Part shown: positions 1-11,618 of the stretch, one piece after another
Numbering within the stretch: the first letter of the stretch is position 1
Layout of the letters: the number at the start of each line of letters is the position of its first letter
Assembly (NCBI RefSeq): GCF_902459645.1
Contig: NZ_CABPSK010000001.1
Location: 1,922,001 to 1,986,000 of the forward strand
Source: Pandoraea pneumonica
GTDB taxonomy: Bacteria > Pseudomonadota > Gammaproteobacteria > Burkholderiales > Burkholderiaceae
Reading direction: 5' to 3'
Length of the DNA: 64,000 nucleotides
Program-made: the position numbers and the translations under genes
The notes under the pieces: model-generated
The model's input: the letters and a program-made list of their open reading frames with translations, nothing else
What the model was told of the DNA's origin: nothing
Databases searched by the model: none

Positions 1-321
1 GAATGTGAGCGAAGCCTTACGCAGCAAAATTGGGACATCCAAGTCATCGGAGACGACTTGTCGTGTGAAGGCGACCTTCTGCTCATGGTCGATGACGACT
101 TCAAGAAAAAGGTCATGCATACGCGAGCGGATGGCTGCCTCGTCGCGCAGCAGAACCGGCCATAGCTTTGACTGACGCCGGGCATCCACCGAAGGCCCCA
201 GAAGGAGTTGAACTAGGACCCGTCGGGTATCGATGGGTAGCGTCCCTGTATCTCCTTGGAAGGTTTCAACTTCGGCAACAGGGGAATCCGCCGCCATATC
301 GTCAGCAAGAGACTCATCCAT
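1..321 (-). CDS. jetB: Wadjet JetB (DUF4194), 5' part only, cut by window edge
   Basis: JetB is the kleisin-associated (KITE-like) subunit of the Wadjet SMC complex, which recognises and cleaves circular plasmid DNA. My translation of the reverse strand from the ATG at 321 gives 107 codons with no stop before the edge. It contains LPIDTRRVLVQLLLGPSVDA, then WPVLLRDEAAIRSRMHDLF and VAFTRQVV, which is the usual pattern of DUF4194 proteins. The start lies 4 nt after the jetA stop, so the two are translationally linked. jetC and jetD are expected further left and cannot be seen. Family assignment rests on recognising the sequence by eye. Confidence 0.85.
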   Translation of the reverse strand, partial: MDESLADDMAADSPVAEVETFQGDTGTLPIDTRRVLVQLLLGPSVDARRQSKLWPVLLRDEAAIRSRMHDLFLEVVIDHEQKVAFTRQVVSDDLDVPILLRKASLTF

Positions 322-325
322 CGTG

Positions 326-1789
326 TCAGTCAACGAGTTCAAGATAGCGCTCCCTCATGAAATAGATGGCGGGAACTTTGGCACGGCGCTGCACCTCGTC
401 GTCCCCTTTCCAGAGCACAATTTCTGTACCGCCGGTCACTTCCCCGTGCTTGGAGCCAAGCGCAACATAGCCGACAACGCTTCCCAAGCCCTGCTCCGCA
501 GGGTACTCAGCGAGAATTTGCGCAATGGAAACCTGAGATTGCCGCGCCAGGATGGACCGAACGTGGGCCTTGAGCGTACGGAAGTCGATTTCCGATTGCC
601 GAACCAGCTCGCTCACAATTTCGAGGTCCAGTTCGGAAGGCTCCGCCGCCTGCATCGACGAGTCGGTGACGCGCTCAGCTGGGTCATACAGTGCCCACTG
701 GGACACCGACCTGATTCGACTGCTAGACTGCATGAGTTCGAAGCCCACTTGCTCGTTTGGCCGAACCTCGTTCTTGGCACCCAGCGCGGCCTGCGTGGCC
801 GCTTTAATGAGGCCATGCAGCCGCCGGTGCTCGAGGAATTCTCGGCTCTGCACAAAGCTCTTGAGGCTACGTGCGAAATGCTGCAGCACATCGTGCACAC
901 CCCGTCCTTCATTCAACAAGGCTCCCGTCAGTCCCAGCAAGAATTTGCGCTCCTGCGACTCCAGTTGTCGTGCAAAGGGGCGGCCGGTCACCTCATCAAG
1001 CGACTCTCGTAGCGTTGCAGCCTGCTCGCTGTCGGTCAGCAAACGCCAGAACGCATGGAAGGTTCGACCCGCGTCACTCTCGCCAATGAGGTCGACGCCC
1101 GCGAAGAGTTGCTCCAACACGTCGCCGCGGCTACCTTCATTCTCCATCAAGCTCTGACGAAGACCTCGGTTCAACCTCTCGAATTCATCACGAACGCTTC
1201 GGAAGTCGGCTGCGAGCTCTTGCGCCAAAGCTATGACTTCGCGCGCACGCTCCACAGCGCGGTCTGCAGCAAGCGCTTTTACTCCGCCACGCTCGATCTC
1301 CTGAATCGCCAAGTCAATACGGTCGCGCTCAGCGCGCAGCGCAGCCAAACGCGCTTGAGGATTGGTGTTTGTTTCCTCAGCCAGTCGCGATAGCTGGTGA
1401 ATAACGACGGACAAGCGACTCTCGGTTGCCGTGGTACGTGGCTTCAAAAGCCCAGTGACAAAGCGCAGTGCTGTCAGTGCGTCAGCCGACAGCTCGTACT
1501 CCTCTTCAGACACTCCCACAGGGAATCGACGGGTCAACCATCCTTGGTTGAGCCATTCCGCGACATATGCCTGTGGTGTTTGCGGAAGCTCTTCTCCTAC
1601 TGCGCGCAACGCCTCAAGGTCCCGGGTCAGCCTTTCATGGAGCACTGAGCTTGGGAGCTCCTTTTCAGCGTCCATGAACAGAGACTGCAGCAAGGCGATC
1701 ACAACAGGCCCTTTGGTGGCCGCGAGCAAACGCCAGAGTGGCTGCTCACGTAGAGTACGAAAGGCAGCAGCGCCCCGCAACGCCTTCAT
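326..1789 (-). CDS. jetA: Wadjet JetA (DUF3375), kleisin-like subunit
   Basis: JetA is the MukF/kleisin-like subunit of the JetABC SMC motor that acts with nuclease JetD against plasmids. The 487-residue product begins MKALRGAAAFRTLREQPLWR. It shows the DUF3375 N-terminal winged-helix region (about 1-110), a TESRL segment followed by a helical, probably coiled-coil stretch (about 120-190, LAALRAERDRIDLAIQEIER), and a C-terminal region (RYLELVD end). Length fits the family. I chose the ATG at 1789 because it overlaps the upstream helicase stop as ATGA and begins at the conserved N-terminus; a longer reading to 1843 would add 18 residues inside the helicase gene. The coupling implies co-expression with the AddAB-like pair. 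Confidence 0.9.
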   Translation of the reverse strand: MKALRGAAAFRTLREQPLWRLLAATKGPVVIALLQSLFMDAEKELPSSVLHERLTRDLEALRAVGEELPQTPQAYVAEWLNQGWLTRRFPVGVSEEEYELSADALTALRFVTGLLKPRTTATESRLSVVIHQLSRLAEETNTNPQARLAALRAERDRIDLAIQEIERGGVKALAADRAVERAREVIALAQELAADFRSVRDEFERLNRGLRQSLMENEGSRGDVLEQLFAGVDLIGESDAGRTFHAFWRLLTDSEQAATLRESLDEVTGRPFARQLESQERKFLLGLTGALLNEGRGVHDVLQHFARSLKSFVQSREFLEHRRLHGLIKAATQAALGAKNEVRPNEQVGFELMQSSSRIRSVSQWALYDPAERVTDSSMQAAEPSELDLEIVSELVRQSEIDFRTLKAHVRSILARQSQVSIAQILAEYPAEQGLGSVVGYVALGSKHGEVTGGTEIVLWKGDDEVQRRAKVPAIYFMRERYLELVD

Positions 1790-4700
1790 GTGCACTCCCG
1801 CGCGAGACGCAACGCACGCGCAGCAACCGGAAAATAGAGCCACTGCTCGGCGACCGATATTCCCGTTGCAGCAACCAGAGCCTCAGCGTACGCAGCGAGT
1901 TGCGGACCGTGCTCAAGGGCCAACTGCTCATTCCGATCGGAGCCACCTGGGTTGGATTTGTGGTCGACAAGAATCCATCCTTTAGAGGATTGCACCAGTA
2001 GGTCGATACGGCCCCTGACGCGCGTTCCGTCGGGACGATTCGCCTCAATCGGGACCTCGACAAAGGTCGGACACCCAGGCCAGCGCTCGTGGCACCACGC
2101 ACGGAAGGCGGTGAGCTGCGCGACGACTGCGGCGTTGTCGACAGTATTGCCTACGCCCCAATTGCTGAGAATGCTGCTGACATCGCCCTGCTCCACCGCT
2201 CCCCGTGCACCAGCCCGAGCAATGCAGTGATGCACTGCCGTCCCCAGGTCCGCCATGTCGGGCTTTCCCGTCAGCGCAATGCGAATGCCGACATCCGCGG
2301 TCTCAGCAATGTCGAACTGGCCGCCAACAGCGCTACTAGGCCCGTACCACAAGGGCACAGCCGATGCGTGAGGGCGACGGGTGAACCAATGACGGTCCTG
2401 CGGTGCCCGCGCTGGCGGCTCCATTGCGCATTCGTCTTTGCTCCAGTCCTTGGAGGCTCTTGAGCACCGCTGGCCATCAGGAAGTACCAGCTCCTCAGTT
2501 GGGCCAAATAGCAGCGGACTTGCCCCCGGTACCTCATCCACCCAGCTGCGTACCGGTCCAGATTTTCTGGAGAACGACACCAAGACGTTCACATCTCTGG
2601 CTCGAGTCAACCCGACGTAGAGCAAGCGCTTGCTCTCCGCCACTGCATCTTTCTGCATTGCCTCCCCGGTAGCGCTTGCCTCCGCGTTTGCCGCAGCTTG
2701 GGGCGGAGAGCGTTTGCCCCAGGTCTTCAGCCAGCAATGAATGAAGCGATTACCAAGCGGCAGTTGCGGATCAAAGGCACCTTCCGTTCGTGCGCGCACG
2801 CTCCAAATGGCGCTTCTAGCGGTGTCCCCAAGCGAGGTGAGTACAACCACTGGCCATTCCAAACCTTTGGAACCGTGGTAGGTAAGAACTGTGACGGCGT
2901 TGTCCGCTGTCGCCGCCCGGCTATCATCCTCAGCTTCCGCCGCCGCATCGAGCCATCTCAGCATCCCACTGACCGTCGCAGGCCGCTTGGCCGCAACGCA
3001 TTCGTCTTCGTAGGCTTTTCCCAGTTCGACTAGGGCCTCTACGTTGGCCAATCGGTTGCGGGCCTCATGCGGAGAGCCGGACCATTGGGCGACAAGCTGA
3101 GCAACGTGCGATTCCGCAGTTGCCAGACGCAGAGCTTCCAGCGGTGTCAGGGACGTGAAGGCTGGCCGCAGTCCTTCGAGACGTGCAAGGAGGGGGTGTG
3201 CTGATTCACCATGCGTCTTCCACTCATGAGCTTTGGCGTCGGCCTGCCCAAGATAATCGAGGCGGTCCGCGAGCCAAATGTCTATCGGGGTGCCGTCTGC
3301 CAACGTGAGCACCACTGCGGATGCAACCGTATCGCTGACGTCGTTCATGCGACGAAGACAAGCCAGGACAAAGATGGCTTCTGCTGTTCCCAGCAGGCCG
3401 GCGCGTGGACTTTCGGAAGGAATACCCCATCGGGTGAGCGATGTGACGGCCAGGTCCACTTGGTCGTTTCTCCGGCAAAGGACCCCAATGTCACTGGGTC
3501 GGATTGCCCTAAGGGTCTTGGTCACCCTGTCTTCCACCTGCGCCCCGGAGGCAAGTAGCTCCGCAACAGCCTGGCCCAATGCCAGGTAGTCCGTGCCGTT
3601 TTTGCTGCTCTCAAAGTTCCAGTTCAACAGCGAACGCTGGCCGGGCAGGTCCTTGCGAGCGGGTTGTAGTTGAACGTCCTGAGGTGTCAGGTCCGCCTGG
3701 AAGGCGCCTCCAAACACTGCATTCGTGAGCGAGACCAAAGCTGGGGTGGACCGTCGCGATGTCGTCAGGGGCTGTCCGATAGTGCCGCCCCAGCCCGGAA
3801 TGGCTCCGATGACTCCAGCAATGAGGCTGGCATCGGTCCCGCGAAAGCCATAAATGGCTTGCTTGGGATCGCCAACCCAAATTGAACGCTTGGCCAGATT
3901 AGCGAACTCCACGAACAGCGCAAGCTGGAGAGGGCTCGTGTCCTGGAACTCATCAACCATCACGAGGTCCAGTTCGTCAGCCAGAGCTTCACGGACGCTC
4001 GTGTTTTCTCGGATCGCGCGCAATAACAGCACTTCCTGGTCACTGAAGTCCACGGCTCCCATGGCCTTCTTGGCCTCCGCGTAGGCGTCCAGGGCATCGG
4101 CTGCGAGATTGAATATCAACTCCAGATACCGCCTCACTTCGGAGTGGAAGGCTGGATGGGATTCGTGCACCTGAGCCGCAGTTTTCACGGGTTCGAGAAG
4201 GTCCTTGACCTTGGCGCCTGCGTCGATGCCTGCAGCACCAATCCAATCAGGCCAAGACCATCGGTCCTCGCGGAACGCACGCTCGAGTTGTTGCAAGTAG
4301 GCCAAACCGTCCTGAAGGTTCTTGGCCACTTTTGCGCCAGCAGCAACTTGCGCCTCGACATAGGAAGAGACCTCCTGTCGCGCCGTTGCCACGGCCGCGA
4401 CTAGAACCGTTGTCGGGTCTGTACCTGCGGTTGGGGCTGGCCAGTTCGCAAGCATCTGATCTGCGTTGTGAGGCCCCATCGTCCGCAGCGCTGCTGGCGC
4501 TATATCGTTGTCCAGGGCCGCCTTGACGACGTCCTTGACGGTTTTGGCCCAGTCTTCCTGCTCGATTCCAAATCTGCGGGTGAGCCGAACCAATTCGGAC
4601 TGGCCCACGGCGTCGAGAGTCTCGGCAAGCGACGTTTCGAGCAACCGTTTCGTCTGCCCTTCGCTCAGAACGGTCTGATCGGGGGATAGTCCCAGCTCAA

Positions 4701-4971
4701 AGCAGAACCGCTTGAGCATATGGCCGCAGACACCGTTGACCGTTCCCAGCCTGGCTTGTCCGATGGCTGTGGCAAGGTCGACACGGCCTTTCTCCAGCAA
4801 CCATGACCGAGCGCGTTCGCGCAATTCCGTGGCGGCCTTCACCGTAAATGTCGTTGCGAGAATGGCATGAGGCCGGGCGAACCCAGACTCGAGTGCTTGG
4901 GCGAGGGTTTCGGTCAGTTTGTAGGTCTTGCCGCTACCGGCGCCCGCGCTCACAAATTCGATGTTGTTCAT
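1786..4971 (-). CDS. AddA/RecB-like UvrD-family helicase with C-terminal PD-(D/E)XK nuclease
   Basis: Superfamily 1A helicase-nuclease of 1061 residues, expected to unwind and degrade DNA together with the AddB-like partner. Visible motifs: Walker A SAGAGSGKT (about 8-16), motif Ia TTFTVKAATELRERA (about 40), Walker B DEFQD (340-344), motif III VGDPKQAIYGFRG (about 366-378), motif V TYHGSKGLEWPVV, motif VI LLYVGLTRAR, and near the end GRIDLLV plus LVDHKS with a later QLAAYAEAL. These give nuclease residues D990, D1003 and K1005. The start ATG at 4971 shares one base with the upstream TAA (TAATG); the ATG at 5013 lies inside the partner gene. The 3' end overlaps jetA (ATGA). General RecB-type repair function is an alternative, but chromosomal addAB or recBCD would not normally sit in a Wadjet operon. 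Confidence 0.85.
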   Translation of the reverse strand: MNNIEFVSAGAGSGKTYKLTETLAQALESGFARPHAILATTFTVKAATELRERARSWLLEKGRVDLATAIGQARLGTVNGVCGHMLKRFCFELGLSPDQTVLSEGQTKRLLETSLAETLDAVGQSELVRLTRRFGIEQEDWAKTVKDVVKAALDNDIAPAALRTMGPHNADQMLANWPAPTAGTDPTTVLVAAVATARQEVSSYVEAQVAAGAKVAKNLQDGLAYLQQLERAFREDRWSWPDWIGAAGIDAGAKVKDLLEPVKTAAQVHESHPAFHSEVRRYLELIFNLAADALDAYAEAKKAMGAVDFSDQEVLLLRAIRENTSVREALADELDLVMVDEFQDTSPLQLALFVEFANLAKRSIWVGDPKQAIYGFRGTDASLIAGVIGAIPGWGGTIGQPLTTSRRSTPALVSLTNAVFGGAFQADLTPQDVQLQPARKDLPGQRSLLNWNFESSKNGTDYLALGQAVAELLASGAQVEDRVTKTLRAIRPSDIGVLCRRNDQVDLAVTSLTRWGIPSESPRAGLLGTAEAIFVLACLRRMNDVSDTVASAVVLTLADGTPIDIWLADRLDYLGQADAKAHEWKTHGESAHPLLARLEGLRPAFTSLTPLEALRLATAESHVAQLVAQWSGSPHEARNRLANVEALVELGKAYEDECVAAKRPATVSGMLRWLDAAAEAEDDSRAATADNAVTVLTYHGSKGLEWPVVVLTSLGDTARSAIWSVRARTEGAFDPQLPLGNRFIHCWLKTWGKRSPPQAAANAEASATGEAMQKDAVAESKRLLYVGLTRARDVNVLVSFSRKSGPVRSWVDEVPGASPLLFGPTEELVLPDGQRCSRASKDWSKDECAMEPPARAPQDRHWFTRRPHASAVPLWYGPSSAVGGQFDIAETADVGIRIALTGKPDMADLGTAVHHCIARAGARGAVEQGDVSSILSNWGVGNTVDNAAVVAQLTAFRAWCHERWPGCPTFVEVPIEANRPDGTRVRGRIDLLVQSSKGWILVDHKSNPGGSDRNEQLALEHGPQLAAYAEALVAATGISVAEQWLYFPVAARALRLARECT

Positions 4972-7589
4972 TACTCCCACCCTCCCAGCAATACGAGATA
5001 GTCTCGGTCCCACCGGCTGGGTCCCTTAACCGGCAAAGTGCCATCGGGACCGTTGTAGTCGTCAGTTGGCTCTTGCGGGACGACTTCAATTTCCCCTGCT
5101 GCGAACTGGTCAGTTCTCCAGGTCCAAGTCGCCTTTGCCCGTTCGAGCAAAGTGCGCACCGTAACGTTGTCGGGTGGCGATGTGAGTTGCGCCTGCGGGA
5201 AGATTCCGGGGTGCGAAATCAACAACGCGCCGCTTTCCAGGATGAAGAATCCCAGTGCCACAGGCGCAATTCCAGTCTTTTGCTCGACCAGGCTGGAGTA
5301 CAGTGCCAGTTGAAGATGGCCGCCCTCGCGGAGCATCCGAGAGTAGTAGTTGTCCCCGCGCCATTTCATATCAAGGGCGACAGCTTTGTTGTCGGGCAGT
5401 TCGACCAGGAGGTCAATCTTGCCTGTCAACGGTATTGGACCAAGCGCACCATCAAACTCGGCCTCGGTCTGAACGCGTACAGCTTTGGCTGCGCGTAAAT
5501 GGTCCAAGAGCGAGCATATTGCGCCTTCGCAGGTCATCTGGAAGCGCTGCAGGCTGATGCCAGCGCCCTGCATCAGTAGGACCGCTCCCTCTGTGCGGAG
5601 CAGTTCATCGGCCTGAGCTCGGTACCAGTCCTTGGCTTTTTGGTTCGACCAGGTCAGAGCATCTGCATGCGCAAAGAGCATTTCGAAGACGCGGTGGGCA
5701 AGGATGCCTAGAAGGCGGTTGTCTTCTTCTACCGCAAGAATGGACGTCGGGTTCAACCGGGCAATCCGCTTGAGAGCAAAGAGCGCAGGCGCATTGAACA
5801 ACTCGTTGAGTGCCGTGTACGACTGTTGATTGGTGGACAGCTTCAGCGGCCCGGGGAGCTGGATATGGCGTTGCACGTCAGGAAACGGGAGCGGCACCAC
5901 CTGTTCGGTCAGTGATCCTAGAAGCTGGCTGCCACATGCTGCCTCGAGGTCCATGGCCTGCGCTTCAAAGTCCGGGATGAGTTGTTGGAGAAGTTGTCGT
6001 ACAGGGTGGACTTCCCGGCCAGGAGGGGGTGCAACCAGCACAAAGCGTTTGCGGGCTGCCAACAAAGGGCGTAGCCATTGCATGGACAAGGACGCCAACT
6101 GACTCACTGGATCCCGCAGTTCTACCCCTAACTCCTTCAATGCTTGGACTTCCGCGCTTGACCAAGGGAGTTGCTGTACCAGCATTGGCGTGGAAGGCAT
6201 CCACCAGATAACCTCATCAACCGGCTCAATGCAAGCTGCTGCGCTGTTTGCAGAGCGCATGCACCCGACCTGTGAAACGGCACCAGGATTGGATGCGCCT
6301 GTTGGCGTCGCATGGGCCACAAGCTGTTCAATTTGCCGGGGCATCAGCGTGGTGATGCCCTGTCGGGAAAGTTCAGAGAGACTGTCGAAAACAGCTGCGC
6401 ATTGCCGATGCGCAGGTGCGAACGTGGCCGCTATCTCGGGGTCGCCGGACAACCTGCGTCGCATCGCTTCCTTGAGCCTGTCGACCCGCGCGAGCAAGGG
6501 GCCCAAGGGCGCCCCCTCCTGGCGTGGCCAGCGTTCGCCTTCAAGCCAGAACTCAATATCGAGCACCAGTACTTCGCCATCTTTGCCGGCGGCAATTTTT
6601 TTCTTGGCCTCTATCCAAGCTGCTCCGCCAATCCCAGGCTGCTCAGCAACGGCTTTCGCGAGCGCGGCTCGCGCTCTCCGGCTGAACGGTCCCACCGGGT
6701 GAGTCAAGAAGTCGACCAGGCGGCTAACGTCGAGAGGTTCCCAGCACATCTCCAAGGCTAGGCCCAGCGCCTGCAAGGCAGGGCGAAGTTGGCTGGGGTT
6801 CTCAAAGCCGCAGTTCACTCCACCTGTGGCGACCAACGTGGTATCGAGCGAGTCACCGTGGTTTTCCGCGAGGACCAGCCGGTCCATGGGGTGCGCGGCG
6901 GCGTAAGCACCGAGCCAGTGCTCAGCTGTCGAAAAGGAGAGTGTGCGAACGAGCTGCACACTGCCATCAGTAATGGGAGATATCTTGTTCGGCGGTTCCT
7001 GCCCCGACATGACGAGAACCGCCTTTTCTTGCAGGATGCGCAGTGCCCCTTCTCCCTGCGGGGCCGAAGGGCTGACGTTCACACCGGGCAAGCAGGCCAG
7101 CACCCTGCGCCACAAGGGGGAAAAATCTTCCAGGGGGTCAACGAGGGAGACTGAGGTAATCGGGCCGGGGCCTGTAGTCTTGAGCACCTGCTCCACCAAT
7201 AGCAACCGAGTGGCTTCACCCGGTGGCATAGCCGACGCTGTCGACTCAACCATGGCCAGTTCTTTAAGCCGGACAGGATGCGACGCCAGTGCAGTTCCCT
7301 GCCAGCCCCCGAGAAGCCACTCATCTCGCCAGGACAGGAGCTTCGCCGCAGTGCCAACGCTGTCGACTTTCATGGATGCACTGTAGAAACGGGCGCCATT
7401 GTCGTGGTCCTGAAGATGCCCCATGTAGACCGCAACCCGCTGCGCTGCAGCGACCTCGGGTTTGGCCAAGCCAAGGTACGTTTCAAGTAACGACAGAAAG
7501 CCGAGCCGCCCCACAACCGGGGCATTGAAGGAGTTCTGCGGTGAGGGCCCCTGGCGGGCATCAAGATTCAGACCAAAGGTGACATGCAT
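4971..7589 (-). CDS. AddB-like PD-(D/E)XK nuclease family protein
   Basis: Partner of the downstream helicase, 872 residues. The N-terminal three quarters resemble an inactivated helicase-like AddB core, with no Walker A motif I can see. The C-terminus carries a RecB-type nuclease fold: HRVFEMLFAH (conserved His), GKIDLLVELP (D726), VALDMKW (D740, K742) and QLALYSSLV (QxxxY). The four-cysteine iron-sulphur clasp of canonical AddB is not evident. Its stop codon overlaps the next start (TAATG), so the pair is stoichiometrically coupled as in addBA operons. No good Shine-Dalgarno was seen before ATG 7589, and about 200 nt separate it from the preceding small gene. Whether it works in repair or defence is inferred only from the Wadjet context. 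Confidence 0.75.
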   Translation of the reverse strand: MHVTFGLNLDARQGPSPQNSFNAPVVGRLGFLSLLETYLGLAKPEVAAAQRVAVYMGHLQDHDNGARFYSASMKVDSVGTAAKLLSWRDEWLLGGWQGTALASHPVRLKELAMVESTASAMPPGEATRLLLVEQVLKTTGPGPITSVSLVDPLEDFSPLWRRVLACLPGVNVSPSAPQGEGALRILQEKAVLVMSGQEPPNKISPITDGSVQLVRTLSFSTAEHWLGAYAAAHPMDRLVLAENHGDSLDTTLVATGGVNCGFENPSQLRPALQALGLALEMCWEPLDVSRLVDFLTHPVGPFSRRARAALAKAVAEQPGIGGAAWIEAKKKIAAGKDGEVLVLDIEFWLEGERWPRQEGAPLGPLLARVDRLKEAMRRRLSGDPEIAATFAPAHRQCAAVFDSLSELSRQGITTLMPRQIEQLVAHATPTGASNPGAVSQVGCMRSANSAAACIEPVDEVIWWMPSTPMLVQQLPWSSAEVQALKELGVELRDPVSQLASLSMQWLRPLLAARKRFVLVAPPPGREVHPVRQLLQQLIPDFEAQAMDLEAACGSQLLGSLTEQVVPLPFPDVQRHIQLPGPLKLSTNQQSYTALNELFNAPALFALKRIARLNPTSILAVEEDNRLLGILAHRVFEMLFAHADALTWSNQKAKDWYRAQADELLRTEGAVLLMQGAGISLQRFQMTCEGAICSLLDHLRAAKAVRVQTEAEFDGALGPIPLTGKIDLLVELPDNKAVALDMKWRGDNYYSRMLREGGHLQLALYSSLVEQKTGIAPVALGFFILESGALLISHPGIFPQAQLTSPPDNVTVRTLLERAKATWTWRTDQFAAGEIEVVPQEPTDDYNGPDGTLPVKGPSRWDRDYLVLLGGWE

Positions 7590-7791
7590 GGCGCGTTAAG
7601 CAAGTAGCGTAAGCACGTCTGGGAACCGTGCCTGCGCGGTCAAAGCGAAGGGCTACATCAGCTAGTTCCGAGTTCCACTCCCCAGAGTGTCAAACCTGGC
7701 TGGCCTGATGAAGGTCGAACGCTGCCCGGTCTCCAGAACAGCGCGTTGGCTACTTGTGCTCCTTGCGAACGCCCTTGGCGGGCTCGCCGTC

Positions 7792-7926
7792 CTACTTTTG
7801 GTCCATGAAGCGGCCGTTGTCAGTATCGCGCTTGGTCCAGATCTGGTTGGTGGGGGTGAACATCCGCAATCGGTCACGTACAGCGCCGCGAGGGGCGTTG
7901 TCACCAGCAGGGACGTTTTTGGCCAT
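7792..7926 (-). CDS. Small basic hypothetical protein, apparently truncated by an in-frame amber codon
   Basis: A 44-codon reading frame starting MAKNVPAGDNAPRGAVRDRL and containing IWTKRDTDNGRFMDQK, preceded by AGGAG six bases before the ATG. The pattern resembles a widespread family of small basic proteins of unknown function with a WTKRD...GRFMD core followed by a KDG...KGVR(K/R)E tail. Here a TAG follows FMDQK, but the same frame continues as DGEPAKGVRKEHK to a second TAG at 7750-7752. The full-length family product therefore seems to be interrupted by a single nonsense codon or needs readthrough. It lies 17 nt after the 92-residue gene in the same operon. Confidence 0.6.
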   Translation of the reverse strand: MAKNVPAGDNAPRGAVRDRLRMFTPTNQIWTKRDTDNGRFMDQK

Positions 7927-7943
7927 TTCAGTCTCCTGCGTGG

Positions 7944-8222
7944 TTACGCGTTGAGGGTGTGGGTCCAGGCAGGGAGCCCACTGCGAGAAAGGAAATCCAC
8001 CAGGGACGGGCTTCCGAAGAACTGCAGTCGCCCACCGGACATGAAGGCGAGGGCTGCTTGGTCGATACGAAGGTTCGCATTCAGTGCTTTGGCCGTCAGC
8101 TGGGTCAGCAACCGGGAGTTGTCGTCCCGGGTGCCTGAGGACGAGCGGGCGTCGAAGACGGCAAAGTTAATCCAGCCGCCGTTCTGTGCACGCTCCCGAA
8201 TATGGGCGAAATTCACTTTCAT
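7944..8222 (-). CDS. Hypothetical 92-residue protein in the WYL-AddAB-Wadjet operon
   Basis: Not recognised. The product starts MKVNFAHIRERAQNGGWINF and contains VFDARSSSGTRDDNSRLLTQ and LQFFGSPSLVDFLSRSG. It has no signal peptide, membrane segment or metal motif, and looks like a small soluble alpha/beta protein. A clear ribosome-binding site (AGGAGAG, six bases before ATG 8222) and its position 73 nt after the WYL gene and 17 nt before the next small gene support a real gene. Its conserved operon position suggests an accessory or antitoxin-like role, but that is only inference. Confidence 0.65.
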   Translation of the reverse strand: MKVNFAHIRERAQNGGWINFAVFDARSSSGTRDDNSRLLTQLTAKALNANLRIDQAALAFMSGGRLQFFGSPSLVDFLSRSGLPAWTHTLNA

Positions 8223-8295
8223 CTTGCACTCTCCTAGCTCGGAAAAATGTCGAGCATGGCTTCATTATTGCGAGAGCACTGGATCAAATAACGAC

Positions 8296-9288
8296 CTACT
8301 GAACGGCCGCAGGAAGATTTTTTGTTGCAGCGGCGCACAGCGCTGCATGAAGGCGTTGACGCAGCTCTGGTGGTTCAAGAATCTCGACCTCTGGGCTGTG
8401 GCGCAGAAGGTCCATCAACAGCTCTTGGTCGTTGGAGTATGGAATCTCCAAAATGTAGCTGCCGTCCTCGAGATGCTCGCTAGACTGGTCGTGGTGCCAG
8501 GTCTCCTTGCTGACCCATTGAGCTCGTTCTCGGGTGAACTTCAAGCGAGCGCGGTGGGCCGCCTGGCCGGCAAAAATGCCGTAGCCACTGCGGAAGTGCT
8601 CCTGCATCTCGTCGTGACTGACTTCCAGGGCGGCCTCGTCTACAACGCGGACATCGTCAACGGCCTCCAGCGCAAAGGACCTGAGGGCATTGCGAGTGTG
8701 GCACCACGCGTCCAACATCCAGTTTTCGCGGTAGTGCACCAATTGTTGGGGAGAAATGGTGCGCTCCGTATACTCTTTGCGGTCACGGTTCAGATACCGC
8801 AGATGCAAGCGTTTGCTGCCCAGCAGAGCTCCCGCTATGAGCTGGAAGTGCTTGGACTCAACTTTCCTGGGCGCAAAATGGATGAGCTTAAGCCTGCGCT
8901 CTATCGACTTGGACGAGTTGGTGCCTTCGGCGAGCAGGCTGCGGAGACGGGATTTCAACGGGCTGACGTGCTCTTCCAACAGTCCGGGCTGCACACCCTC
9001 CACCAGATGAAGCATCGTCAGCAGTGCAAAAATCTCTGATTCGTTGAACCAGACCCCAGGAAGCTCGAACCGGCCGCCATCCGCCAACTCGTCACGGACG
9101 ACCCAGCCGCGTCGGCTGCGGTCCCATTCGACCGGGCATCCGAGCCGGTCGCGAAGAAACTCGAGGTCACGCTTTACAGAAGCATGCGAAACCTCCAGTT
9201 CAGCTATGAACGTAGCCATCGACACAGCACCGTGCCGGCGGATGAGACGCACGATTTTCGTTATACGCTCGATGCTAATCTTCGACAT
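8296..9288 (-). CDS. WYL-domain transcriptional regulator
   Basis: A 330-residue regulator with an N-terminal winged HTH (ITKIVRLIRRHGAVSMATFI then VSHASVKRDLEFLRDRLG, residues 8-50), a central WYL domain (SPQQLVHYRENWMLDAWC and LRSFALEAVDDV, about 185-225) and a C-terminal WCX-like extension. WYL proteins such as BrxR and CapW commonly repress phage-defence operons and sense nucleic acid or another damage signal. It is the first gene of the leftward operon leading to jetAB and lies just after the CBASS genes, so it could control either unit. Two inverted repeats lie upstream at 9396-9423. The start has GGAAGCC immediately before ATG. Confidence 0.85.
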   Translation of the reverse strand: MSKISIERITKIVRLIRRHGAVSMATFIAELEVSHASVKRDLEFLRDRLGCPVEWDRSRRGWVVRDELADGGRFELPGVWFNESEIFALLTMLHLVEGVQPGLLEEHVSPLKSRLRSLLAEGTNSSKSIERRLKLIHFAPRKVESKHFQLIAGALLGSKRLHLRYLNRDRKEYTERTISPQQLVHYRENWMLDAWCHTRNALRSFALEAVDDVRVVDEAALEVSHDEMQEHFRSGYGIFAGQAAHRARLKFTRERAQWVSKETWHHDQSSEHLEDGSYILEIPYSNDQELLMDLLRHSPEVEILEPPELRQRLHAALCAAATKNLPAAVQ

Positions 9289-9395
9289 GGCTTCCTTTTG
9301 CGAGTGGTCAACTTGGTCATCTCATTGAGCAATAGCCTCTCGCATCATCACGTCAGGCGATACTCAGGGCACTCATCCCAGAAGCGAATTGTGTC

Positions 9396-9423
9396 GTTTA
9401 ATAAACTTCATCCAAATTTGGAT
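9396..9423. promoter_or_regulatory. Two adjacent inverted repeats upstream of the WYL gene (candidate operator)
   Basis: GTTTA-A-TAAAC at 9396-9406 is followed by the perfect 14-bp palindrome ATCCAAATTTGGAT at 9410-9423. Both lie in the AT-rich gap between the WYL start (9288) and the end of the CBASS third cistron. This is the expected place for the operator and promoter of the leftward WYL-AddAB-Wadjet operon. Assignment to the WYL protein is inference. Confidence 0.45.
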
Positions 9424-9435
9424 TAACAATACCAA

Positions 9436-9805
9436 CTAGCTGGGTATGTCTGACAGATACCGGTTTGACTGCCTCGATCTTGAACTCAATTTTAGTTGCT
9501 CACTTTCGGTCAGCGCGATGTACTCGTGCAGCTGTTGCTCTTGGTCTTTGCCCCATGTTGTGAATTCGAACTCGCCGCTCGGTTTCGGGAGAGTCACTTT
9601 GAGCTCAAGACCAAGGAAGTAAGCCTTTTCCAGGACAATGCTCACGTCATAGGGCGTGCCGGACGGGTTAGATACTCTGTTTGGAAGCTACCGTTGGTTT
9701 AACGCTGAGGCTTTTCGCCCGGTAAGCGTCCCCGTTCTTCTTTGTGCAGAGATGGCGAATACCATCGACGATATTCGCCCGGCATTCCTCTTCGTCCATA
9801 AGCAC
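9436..9805 (-). pseudogene. Third CBASS-proximal cistron, apparently frameshifted (about 125 codons in two frames)
   Basis: Downstream of the CD-NTase the reverse strand encodes MDEEECRANIVDGIRHLCTK and ...SVKPTVASKQSI in one frame (ATG 9799 or GTG 9805, stop at 9668). A +1-shifted frame then encodes RVSNPSGTPYDV, GTG 9645-started SIVLEKAYFLGLELKVTL, and ends NRYLSDIPS at 9436. The two halves meet within about 10 nt of AAACAGAGTATCTAACC and read naturally as one small acidic protein. A G-rich stretch (GGGGG) precedes the GTG/ATG. I do not recognise the family. It could be two tiny genes, a sequencing error, a decayed gene, or less likely programmed frameshifting. Confidence 0.45.
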
Positions 9806-9864
9806 GTCATCCCCCAAAATCAAGTAGTTATCCGCAGTTCGCGCGCACTAATTTCGCAGGTACT

Positions 9865-10989
9865 CTAGCCAGGAACGTAGGCTTTGCGCAGTTCCGCATT
9901 GATTTGCTGAAATGGAATTTGCCCCAGGTTTGGAAACTGCTCACGAGTGACCTTTTCAGATAGGTCGTCCAACTCAAGTGAAAGCAAAGTGAGGGCTTCC
10001 AATTTTTCATGCGCGTCAAAAACAGGTCGCGAACCGTCGGGAACGTACAGTTGCCTCGCTTCAGCGTGGTTGCGCGCGAGATTGTCCGCAAAGCGTGTTG
10101 CCTCGGCCAAAATAGCCAACTCGGAAGCAACCCCCACGGTGAGCGCTGGGAGGTCCGCATGCCACAGCATCGAAGAAATGTCGAAGCTCGACAGCCCGAT
10201 ATTCGTCCCTTCTTCTTTTGCATCAGCCGTAAGGTTCTTGCACAGACGAATAGCCTTCTTCAGCCCCCCGCCACACAGCCCATCTCGGTCAGTGATACGT
10301 TCAATGTGCCGGAAGGGCATATTCTTGATGCGCTCGCGGGCGTGCTTGTCCAGAATCTGAACACCACGGTCGGCTTCCCGGCCAGTCCGTTGGTAATCAA
10401 TGGTATCGAACCAGTTGGATGGGACGACGTCCACCTCGCGGCGAAGCGAACCACCCGACAGGTGAATCGCTTTAGCTCCAGACGTATCAACCTTCGCGAC
10501 CGGGTAAGCGTCGGTCAGAATTTTTTCTGATTTGTCCCGAAGGTTGCAAAGCGACGCCAGCGTGTCGTATGAGACTGGGCTGTATTCTCCTTGCAGGGCC
10601 TTCTGTCCGTTGGTGTCGTAGTGAAGGTAGCGGACTTCGAGCACCAGCAAATCGACATCGCTTGCACCGCGAATCTGGATATCGCACGGGACCGAGCCTT
10701 GCAGCCGAAGATTCACGCTAATGCCGAGCTTCCCGAGTCCCGAAAGAAGCTGCTCACCGACCCTGGTTGCTTCCGCAATACCCACGCGGGTGTACTCAGG
10801 ACCGACAGCCTGCATCGCACCAAGAGCATACTTGGTGAACTCCTTTGTTGCGCTGCGTGTCTGGTACGACTCAATAGTGGGAACGCCCGCCAGAATCTCT
10901 CCGGCGGAGTCGAAAGTCACTCCACTTCGGTCACTACCCCGCCGGCGTGCATCCAGGGATTTCAGACGCTTATGAATATCGCGTGCCAT
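9865..10989 (-). CDS. cdnE: CBASS CD-NTase (cyclic oligonucleotide synthase, SMODS-type nucleotidyltransferase)
   Basis: A 374-residue cGAS/DncV-like nucleotidyltransferase that on infection would make a cyclic nucleotide signal. Visible catalytic core: GS at 98-99, the metal-binding pair D111/D113 in GASDVDLLVLE, and the third carboxylate D187 in RREVDVVPSNW, all at normal spacing for a DNA polymerase beta-like fold. It starts 2 nt after the cap15 stop, so the two are one cistronic pair, a minimal type I CBASS (synthase plus effector, no Cap2/Cap3 seen). The clade E symbol is a guess from its pairing with a Cap15-like effector; the product nucleotide cannot be read from sequence. Confidence 0.85.
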   Translation of the reverse strand: MARDIHKRLKSLDARRRGSDRSGVTFDSAGEILAGVPTIESYQTRSATKEFTKYALGAMQAVGPEYTRVGIAEATRVGEQLLSGLGKLGISVNLRLQGSVPCDIQIRGASDVDLLVLEVRYLHYDTNGQKALQGEYSPVSYDTLASLCNLRDKSEKILTDAYPVAKVDTSGAKAIHLSGGSLRREVDVVPSNWFDTIDYQRTGREADRGVQILDKHARERIKNMPFRHIERITDRDGLCGGGLKKAIRLCKNLTADAKEEGTNIGLSSFDISSMLWHADLPALTVGVASELAILAEATRFADNLARNHAEARQLYVPDGSRPVFDAHEKLEALTLLSLELDDLSEKVTREQFPNLGQIPFQQINAELRKAYVPG

Positions 10990-10991
10990 TT

Positions 10992-11618
10992 CTAGTTCTT
11001 CCGCGTGAGTTTCATAGTTCCAAATGTGAACCGACCGTGCCCGTTGAAGTACTCGCCATCCGCAGTTTTTAGGTCGGGGCCAAAAGTCAACTCGGCCGCC
11101 CCGCGATGCGCTACAAGCTCCGCTTCGCCGAGTTTGGGCTCGTTCTTATAGTTGTAAAGAAGCCTGAGCCCATCAGCCTGGTCGTACACCAAGGCAGCTG
11201 CGATGCTGTTGGACGCTGATTGGGCAGTCTTGAGACGCACTCGAAGCTTGTCCCAGCTCTGAATAATCGTGACCTCGGCCTCCCACTTGTATCCAGGAGC
11301 TTTATCCGGATTGATGGTTTGGCCATCGCAGTGCCACTTGCCAGATAAATTGGGCACTTTCACAAGCTTTGCGATGACTCCGATTTTCCAGACGTACTTG
11401 TCGAACACCCAATAGAGCACGGCGTAGATAAGACCGGCCGTGAGGGGCCACATCACCAAACCTGGCACGTTGTCAGCGATTCCAAGGCGCTTGGCCAAGT
11501 CCACCAGCCACAGAACTACAACACCAATGCCAGAAGCGACGACCGCTGACATGATGCTGAGATATCGGCCAATGACGGCACGGTTAAGCCCACCAAGGAC
11601 GGAGTATTCGTGTTCCAA
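10992..11618 (-). CDS. cap15: CBASS effector Cap15 (2TM plus beta-barrel)
   Basis: A 208-residue membrane effector. Two transmembrane helices lie near the N-terminus (about 20-42, IMSAVVASGIGVVVLWLV; about 52-76, GLVMWPLTAGLIYAVLYWVF). They are followed by a beta-rich domain (about 85-208) with LSGKWHCDGQTI, WEAEVTIIQSWDKLRVRL and YFNGHGRFTFGTMKL. This is the SMODS-associated 2TM beta-strand-rich (Cap15) layout. In that family cyclic-nucleotide binding by the barrel triggers oligomerisation and inner-membrane disruption, killing the infected cell. The reading frame begins at TTG 11618, after a GGGGGG stretch; the next Met is residue 23, inside the first helix, so TTG is preferred. Two bases separate it from the synthase. 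Confidence 0.8.
   Translation of the reverse strand: MEHEYSVLGGLNRAVIGRYLSIMSAVVASGIGVVVLWLVDLAKRLGIADNVPGLVMWPLTAGLIYAVLYWVFDKYVWKIGVIAKLVKVPNLSGKWHCDGQTINPDKAPGYKWEAEVTIIQSWDKLRVRLKTAQSASNSIAAALVYDQADGLRLLYNYKNEPKLGEAELVAHRGAAELTFGPDLKTADGEYFNGHGRFTFGTMKLTRKN

Follow-up and report, generated by a model that had tools for sequence, protein, structure and literature searches.

An accessory AddAB-type helicase-nuclease pair joined end to end to a type I Wadjet operon in Pandoraea pneumonica

Introduction

AddAB-type enzymes load on DNA ends and degrade DNA, while JetD, the nuclease of Wadjet systems, linearises small circular DNA. Wadjet has been described, in the accessible part of one account, as sensing topology and cleaving DNA (PMC12904381). 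Here we describe a locus of Pandoraea pneumonica in which genes of both kinds stand in a single row: an addB-addA pair (addBA; AddBA for the proteins) runs directly into jetABCD, a type I Wadjet operon. The locus lies in a 64,000-nt stretch of NZ_CABPSK010000001.1, hereafter the window, from a genome labelled G000. No description of a Wadjet-AddAB pair was found in the literature searched, which left out most subscription journals and nearly all preprints, and a paper naming both Wadjet and AddAB draws no link between them in its available portion.

We consider it fairly probable that two self-contained modules, a mobile accessory AddBA and a type I Wadjet, were joined here end to end by a secondary operon fusion. 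Because Acidovorax sp. Leaf160 carries both modules well apart, the most likely interpretation is that parts of known kinds have been fused, and not that the six genes make up one new machine. The original prediction for this DNA had put forward a single six-gene system described nowhere and, as an alternative, a separate defence module sharing control. The first is not supported, in view of the separated modules of Leaf160 and of the 21 of 38 AddBA genomes that have no match to the JetD_C profile, and the second is the reading that fits best.

Results and discussion

The join between the two modules

In window 1..9288 all genes lie on the minus strand in the order WYL regulator, 92-amino-acid (aa) open reading frame (ORF), 44-aa ORF, addB, addA, jetA and jetB. 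The gene content and leftward order predicted earlier were borne out, and so were the overlaps, TAATG between addB and addA and ATGA between addA and jetA, both of which can be read in the sequence. The WYL gene and the small ORFs show no overlap coupling, and about 200 bp stand before addB.

When we compared the locus with Leaf160 (G204) by blastn, it fell into two blocks. Window 1802-9308 aligns at 85.1% with C23:177954-185454 in reversed orientation, and window -4850..1790, which begins to the left of the window, aligns at 85.5% with C23:151063-157700 in direct orientation. In Leaf160 about 20 kb separate the addBA module from the jet module, which has the opposite orientation, and between the two we found a WYL gene divergent from jetA, ZorA and ZorB (PADLOC), TniB and TniQ (Pfam) and, by appearance, TnsA and TnsB. 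In the window, homology to the addBA block gives way to homology to the jet block within 12 bp (1790..1802, minus strand), at the addA stop and the jetA start. The window addA (1786..4971 from the MNN start, minus strand) has four extra codons (RECT), its stop being the TGA within the ATGA of jetA, whereas Leaf160 addA stops before these codons, at an end codon common to Leaf160 and three Pseudomonas (1071 from the upstream start). The jetA gene of Leaf160 likewise starts with ATGA, so the overlap in the window is jetA's own start sequence and not a sign of evolved coupling; the earlier description of the operon as translationally fused was accurate as a description, but the ATGA is no evidence of such coupling. 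The bases just before jetA, GGGAGTGCACATG versus GGGACGTGGCATG, by eye resemble jetA's own ribosome-binding region.

The Leaf160 jetA and a jetA relative in G077 have divergent WYL genes that are 34% identical over 257 aa, and the divergent WYL of Leaf160 has 55% identity with a WYL that diverges from addB on a Variovorax plasmid. Neither a copy of the divergent WYL nor, by tblastn, any of the Leaf160 Tn7-like genes was found in the window or in the adjoining 14 kb on the left. AT-rich repeats, ATTCGCGTCTA and ATTCTCGTCTA, lie between the divergent WYL and jetA of Leaf160 (L087:11701-11960) and may be an operator that the window has lost. In Leaf160, AddBA is followed downstream by LeoA/LeoBC-like genes (L020:3694-7498).

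As judged from these alignments, a rearrangement may have eliminated the stop codon of addA together with all DNA upstream of the ribosome-binding region of jetA. The lost part would include the divergent WYL gene and the intergenic region, both still present in the closest Wadjet relative, and jetABCD would thereby have passed from its own control to that of addBA. Transcription of the jet genes probably starts at the addBA promoter and is controlled by the WYL regulator of addBA, with translation of jetA beginning through the ATGA overlap. A promoter and terminator scan of 1500-10000 gave matches at shuffle level and no minus-strand promoter match, and is uninformative on an internal jet promoter.

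The jet genes form a complete type I Wadjet, partly outside the window. PADLOC type I models are matched in the order A-B-C-D (JetA1 1.9e-201, JetB1 4.5e-96, JetC1 0, JetD1 6.4e-129). The jetA gene (326..1789, minus strand) also matches Pfam DUF3375 (2.2e-152); jetB starts at 342 on the same strand and continues left of the window, and the rest of jetB, jetC and jetD were read in the neighbouring bases of the same contig (L003:13611-14342, 10258-13614 and 9075-10283). Left of jetD lies an ORF named by its appearance as IS3-type transposase-like (L003:7899-8381).

Nature and accessory status of the AddB-AddA pair

The AddA-like subunit combines a UvrD helicase, whose N- and C-terminal domains both score above the Pfam cut-off, with a PDDEXK_1 nuclease domain, and the top PDB match of its profile is 3u44_A, an AddA chain (2.6e-56). 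The AddB-like subunit (4971..7589, minus strand) has a helicase-like fold without a Walker A and a PD-(D/E)XK nuclease (Pfam PDDEXK_1 6.5e-14); the top five PDB matches of its predicted model (pLDDT 82) are AddB chains of AddAB (E 2e-19, TMq 0.56-0.58), followed by AdnA and RecC. Both nuclease triads, read as intact in the original prediction, proved invariant: D990, D1003 and K1005, together with H914, E972, Q1024 and Y1028, in 20 aligned AddA, and D726, D740 and K742, together with H632, E709, Q760 and Y764, in 22 aligned AddB. The Walker A (G14 K15 T16) and DExx (D340 E341) residues are also invariant in the 20 AddA and, with the UvrD domains, uphold the superfamily 1 helicase proposed for this subunit. 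The alignments draw on 30 loci from a species-wide contig scan, A2 taking 21 of them (without L025, L038, L042, L046, L047, L048, L051, L052 and L053) and A3 taking 16 with three plasmid loci.

Bacillus subtilis AddB possesses Fe-S cysteines and a Walker A. None of the 22 AddB aligned here has a Walker A pattern, and no column of the alignment holds at least 70% Cys. Against the NCBIfam AddA cut-offs, the window AddA scores 159.5 bits versus 707.65 and 151.7 versus 860.75, and AddB has no match. Such a score alone does not set AddA apart, because the other AddA-like proteins of Leaf160 (334.6) and G100 (458.2), taken as controls, also fall below 860.75.

An AddA tree of 40 rows (24 of the 30 loci, 10 plasmid rows, one from a phage record, G303, three outgroup rows and the window) separates an accessory clade of 37 rows from the host RecB and the two other AddA-like proteins, of G204 and G100, which are assumed to be housekeeping ones. 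The split is supported at 100/99, in a tree with long outgroup branches and a midpoint root. Members of the clade come from Alpha-, Beta- and Gammaproteobacteria, a Lysinibacillus plasmid, Mariprofundaceae, a Verrucomicrobia metagenome-assembled genome (MAG) and a phage-labelled record. Chance ORFs are ruled out by residue conservation and by the excess of synonymous over amino-acid-changing codon differences from Leaf160 (308/115 in addA, 257/111 in addB and 173/35 in jetA).

On another contig the host carries RecC (Pfam), RecB (821.5 versus a cut-off of 696.05) and RecD (455.8 versus 310.15, both NCBIfam). These genes rule out AddBA as the only end-processing complex of the host and, with it, the earlier suggestion that the pair might be its only chromosomal addAB. 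RecC was also found in G129 and G139, and a second AddAB-like pair in G204 and G100; AddBA is therefore accessory in these five genomes. A different picture is offered by G303, where RecC has no match and the accessory AddBA family, located between apparent housekeeping genes, accounts for the sole PDDEXK_1 matches, so that a repair role is possible there. This case, and the fact that subunits, nuclease residues and fold are the same as in AddAB, would agree with AddBA being a horizontally acquired spare DNA-repair enzyme without a defence role, brought to its place by hitch-hiking in the island. We regard this as unlikely, since AddBA is an addition to a RecC-bearing RecBCD or to another AddAB-like pair in the five genomes named above, adjoins defence genes and WYL regulators, and occurs on plasmids, some of them typed conjugative.

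Distribution of AddBA and its association with Wadjet

AddB was found in 7 of the 399 genomes of the host's order and in 11 of 398 of the genus of Pseudomonas spelaei. The 30 loci of the species-wide scan represent 28 genomes (L042 and L047 come from the same genomes as L037 and L043), and there were matches in 26 of 72,556 plasmid records, 10 of which were opened, and in 1 of 50,697 phage records. AddBA is a mobile accessory AddAB-type clade; it resides on plasmids, within a Tn7-like element and in defence islands, and its neighbours change from one locus to another. Near it we found ZorA/ZorB (Nitrosospira, L043), a HamB-like helicase (L036), dGTPase and SngA (Cupriavidus, L030), SIR2 (tested in L028; alike by eye in L031 and L033), Lamassu LmuA, LmuC and LmuB in two Pseudomonas (tested in L026; near-identical in L027), a gene with a weak PLD match below the Pfam cut-off (tested in L026; alike in L027 and L036) and WYL genes in Variovorax, Chitinilyticum and Sinorhizobium. 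By annotation, multiubiquitin/ThiF genes stand beside AddBA-like pairs on Rhizobium etli and Bosea plasmids (L056, L103), the tables for plasmid neighbours being incomplete. A PADLOC scan matched no model dedicated to the AddBA clade. An AddB-like protein whose helicase domain is inactivated adjoins repeat arrays in another context, according to the available part of PMC10910872. Two further observations concern single records: an AddBA pair (L107:5992-11801) lies on a phage-labelled, unverified 47.5-kb record from human faeces (MT835507), and Pseudomonas baetica has two accessory AddB copies (G402:C166, G402:C127).

DUF3375 was present in 6 of 29 AddBA genomes (27 of the 28 locus genomes were taken, L053 being left out) and adjacent to AddBA in G000 only, and tblastn with the window Jet proteins gave a single weak JetC stretch (31%, L034). 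Neither screen detected the JetA of Variovorax JS1663, which is of the DUF5716 type, or the type III Wadjet found in Pseudomonas, and JetD_C was used instead, a profile that scores some JetD at only 24-26 bits and may miss others. The profile was run against 38 AddBA genomes, among them that of the window and all 28 locus genomes, and against 10 plasmid records; G122, the seventh AddB genome of the order, lay outside this search, and the phage record L107 outside the Wadjet search. JetD_C was present in 17 of the 38 genomes and in none of the plasmid records. On the same contig, a Wadjet is no more than 30 kb from AddBA in five of the 38 genomes (G000, Variovorax JS1663, P. spelaei, P. baetica and Leaf160); when the window's genome is left out, the count is 4 of 37. 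JetD_C lies more than 30 kb from AddBA in G407, G489 and G679.

The five nearby Wadjets occur in four different arrangements, the distance to AddBA being 1.2 kb in Variovorax JS1663, about 6 kb in the two Pseudomonas and about 20 kb in Leaf160. In JS1663 (L034:1823-9922), a complete divergent type I Wadjet (JetA to JetD matched, with a DUF5716-type JetA) is followed by a WYL gene and then by AddBA. In P. spelaei (L026:15847-22616, L111), AddBA, the weakly PLD-like gene and Lamassu LmuA/C/B are followed by a convergent type III Wadjet. The JetC3 and JetD3 matches of the Pseudomonas system are strong and its JetB3 match is weak; the P. baetica contig ends beyond jetD. The addB-addA-jetABCD order with overlaps was seen in G000 only, and among the 51 genomes of the order with a JetA (window-type query), AddB stands beside jetA there alone; the two are about 22 kb apart in G204 and on different contigs in G100, G122 and G129. 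On whether the pair beside jetA is unique to this strain, a point raised with the original prediction, the answer is therefore divided: the fused order is, whereas proximity recurs in JS1663, the two Pseudomonas and Leaf160.

Several observations weigh against a mere joining of independent modules. The direction of change, from separated to fused, is inferred from few relatives. Both modules share an island in G000 as well as in Leaf160, and selection for the pair could be the reason. In nine of the 38 genomes (G406, G412, G414, G415, G418, G420, G424, G425 and G426), JetD_C is on another contig and AddBA less than 30 kb from a contig end, so nearness is possible there. AddBA lies near Wadjets of three lineages, type I with DUF3375 (window, Leaf160), type I with DUF5716 (JS1663) and type III (Pseudomonas). 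Across the order, JetA occurs in 51 of 399 genomes, AddB in 7 and both in 5, that is, AddB in 5/51 genomes with JetA versus 2/348 (p 0.0005), or 4/50 versus 2/348 without the window's genome (p 0.003), with relatedness and genome size uncontrolled. The three lineages and this co-occurrence may indicate a functional association. Taken together, an association of AddBA with Wadjet beyond one accident is suggestive, although defence islands cluster anyway.

The three lineages and the co-occurrence also speak for AddBA and JetABCD being one plasmid-elimination unit, in which AddBA would destroy the linear product before host repair could rescue it and the fusion would be the mature form of the looser, separated loci. 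The fused order with its overlaps is a further point in its favour, as is the finding that Lamassu genes adjoin AddBA in two Pseudomonas. However, the fused order is confined to G000, JetD_C has no match in 21 of 38 AddBA genomes or in any of the 10 plasmid records, AddBA has the other neighbours listed above (Zorya, HamB-like helicase, SngA, SIR2, dGTPase, multiubiquitin/ThiF), and the host is already equipped with RecBCD. A single unit accordingly seems to us rather improbable, and the fusion of two self-contained modules is preferred.

Regulator, small proteins and neighbouring genes

The first gene of the addBA module (8296..9288, minus strand) encodes a WYL-domain regulator with WYL (1.3e-17) and WCX (3.6e-17) matches in Pfam and an HTH_11 just below the cut-off. 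BrxR-family WYL regulators accompany many defence systems, and CapW was found within a cyclic-oligonucleotide-based antiphage signalling system (CBASS), according to the accessible part of PMC9122601. A distance of 576 bp separates the window WYL gene from a CBASS cyclase/Cap15 pair (window 9865-11618) on the same strand, with a glmS-like gene beyond, and the WYL gene could on these grounds belong to the CBASS, as CapW does, instead of to addBA. Against this, WYL proteins 90-92% identical to it precede addBA in Leaf160 (same place, 90%) and in an Aquabacterium MAG, homology to Leaf160 ends 20 bp upstream of the window WYL start codon, and the window CBASS proteins have no tblastn homologue in the available DNA of Leaf160 or of the Aquabacterium MAG, whose contig is 7.6 kb long. 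We hold a CBASS regulator to be very improbable.

Two small proteins had been predicted and both frames are present, but the second is more likely a 44-aa frame (7792..7926, minus strand) than the 80-aa frame. This 44-aa ORF ends about 14 codons before its counterparts in Leaf160 and the Aquabacterium MAG. The 92-aa protein (7944..8222, minus strand) is kept beside addBA in the same two relatives and has no Pfam or NCBIfam match. It also occurs on three plasmids without any AddBA gene listed within 5 kb, and that it is a part of AddBA is doubtful. The island is situated immediately downstream of glmS, which is the usual Tn7 target.

Possible function

From the families to which the proteins belong, JetABC would extrude DNA and JetD would linearise small circular DNA. 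AddBA would load on double-strand ends, whether JetD cuts or the ends of phage DNA, then unwind and degrade the DNA beside the host RecBCD. Alone, AddBA could attack linear phage DNA, and a second enzyme beside RecBCD might offer an escape from phage inhibitors of RecBCD, of which gp5.9 and Abc2 are given as examples in the available part of PMC9836394. Cooperation, with AddBA degrading JetD-linearised DNA, is plausible. More tentatively, the AddBA clade might represent a mobile defence enzyme, so far undescribed, that degrades DNA ends and that DNA-cutting systems have enlisted time and again as their finisher. In this locus it would be fused to Wadjet with a single regulator for both, and a dedicated AddAB, possibly resistant to inhibitors, would immediately destroy the circular invaders that JetD linearises.

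The operon and its unfused relatives provide a way to ask what becomes of a plasmid after JetD linearisation, and whether defence systems come with an end-degrading enzyme of their own. The join illustrates at the level of single bases how a defence operon can pass under the promoter of another system. The pair marks a mobile AddAB-type clade, and both this clade and the fact that it is repeatedly found near Wadjet merit further attention.

Comparison with known systems

Compared with AddAB (RexAB), RecBCD and AdnAB, the window pair has the same UvrD and PD-(D/E)XK architecture in AddA, an AddB nearest to that of AddAB and both nuclease sites. It differs in forming a separate clade in the AddA tree, in an AddB without a Walker A or conserved cysteines, and in being accessory to the host RecBCD. 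A UvrD-type helicase core like that of Gabija GajB and RTasHel yields the PADLOC matches of the window AddA, which in contrast has its own nuclease and an AddB partner; no GajA was found by PADLOC among the seven window proteins scanned. The regulator resembles those of the BrxR/CapW type in being a WYL-WCX protein beside defence genes, its membership being judged from domains alone. Finally, all four Jet subunits match the models of type I Wadjet (JetABCD; MksBEFG-like) in the same order, but the window locus has no divergent WYL gene such as its nearest relative carries and begins inside the 3′ end of addA.

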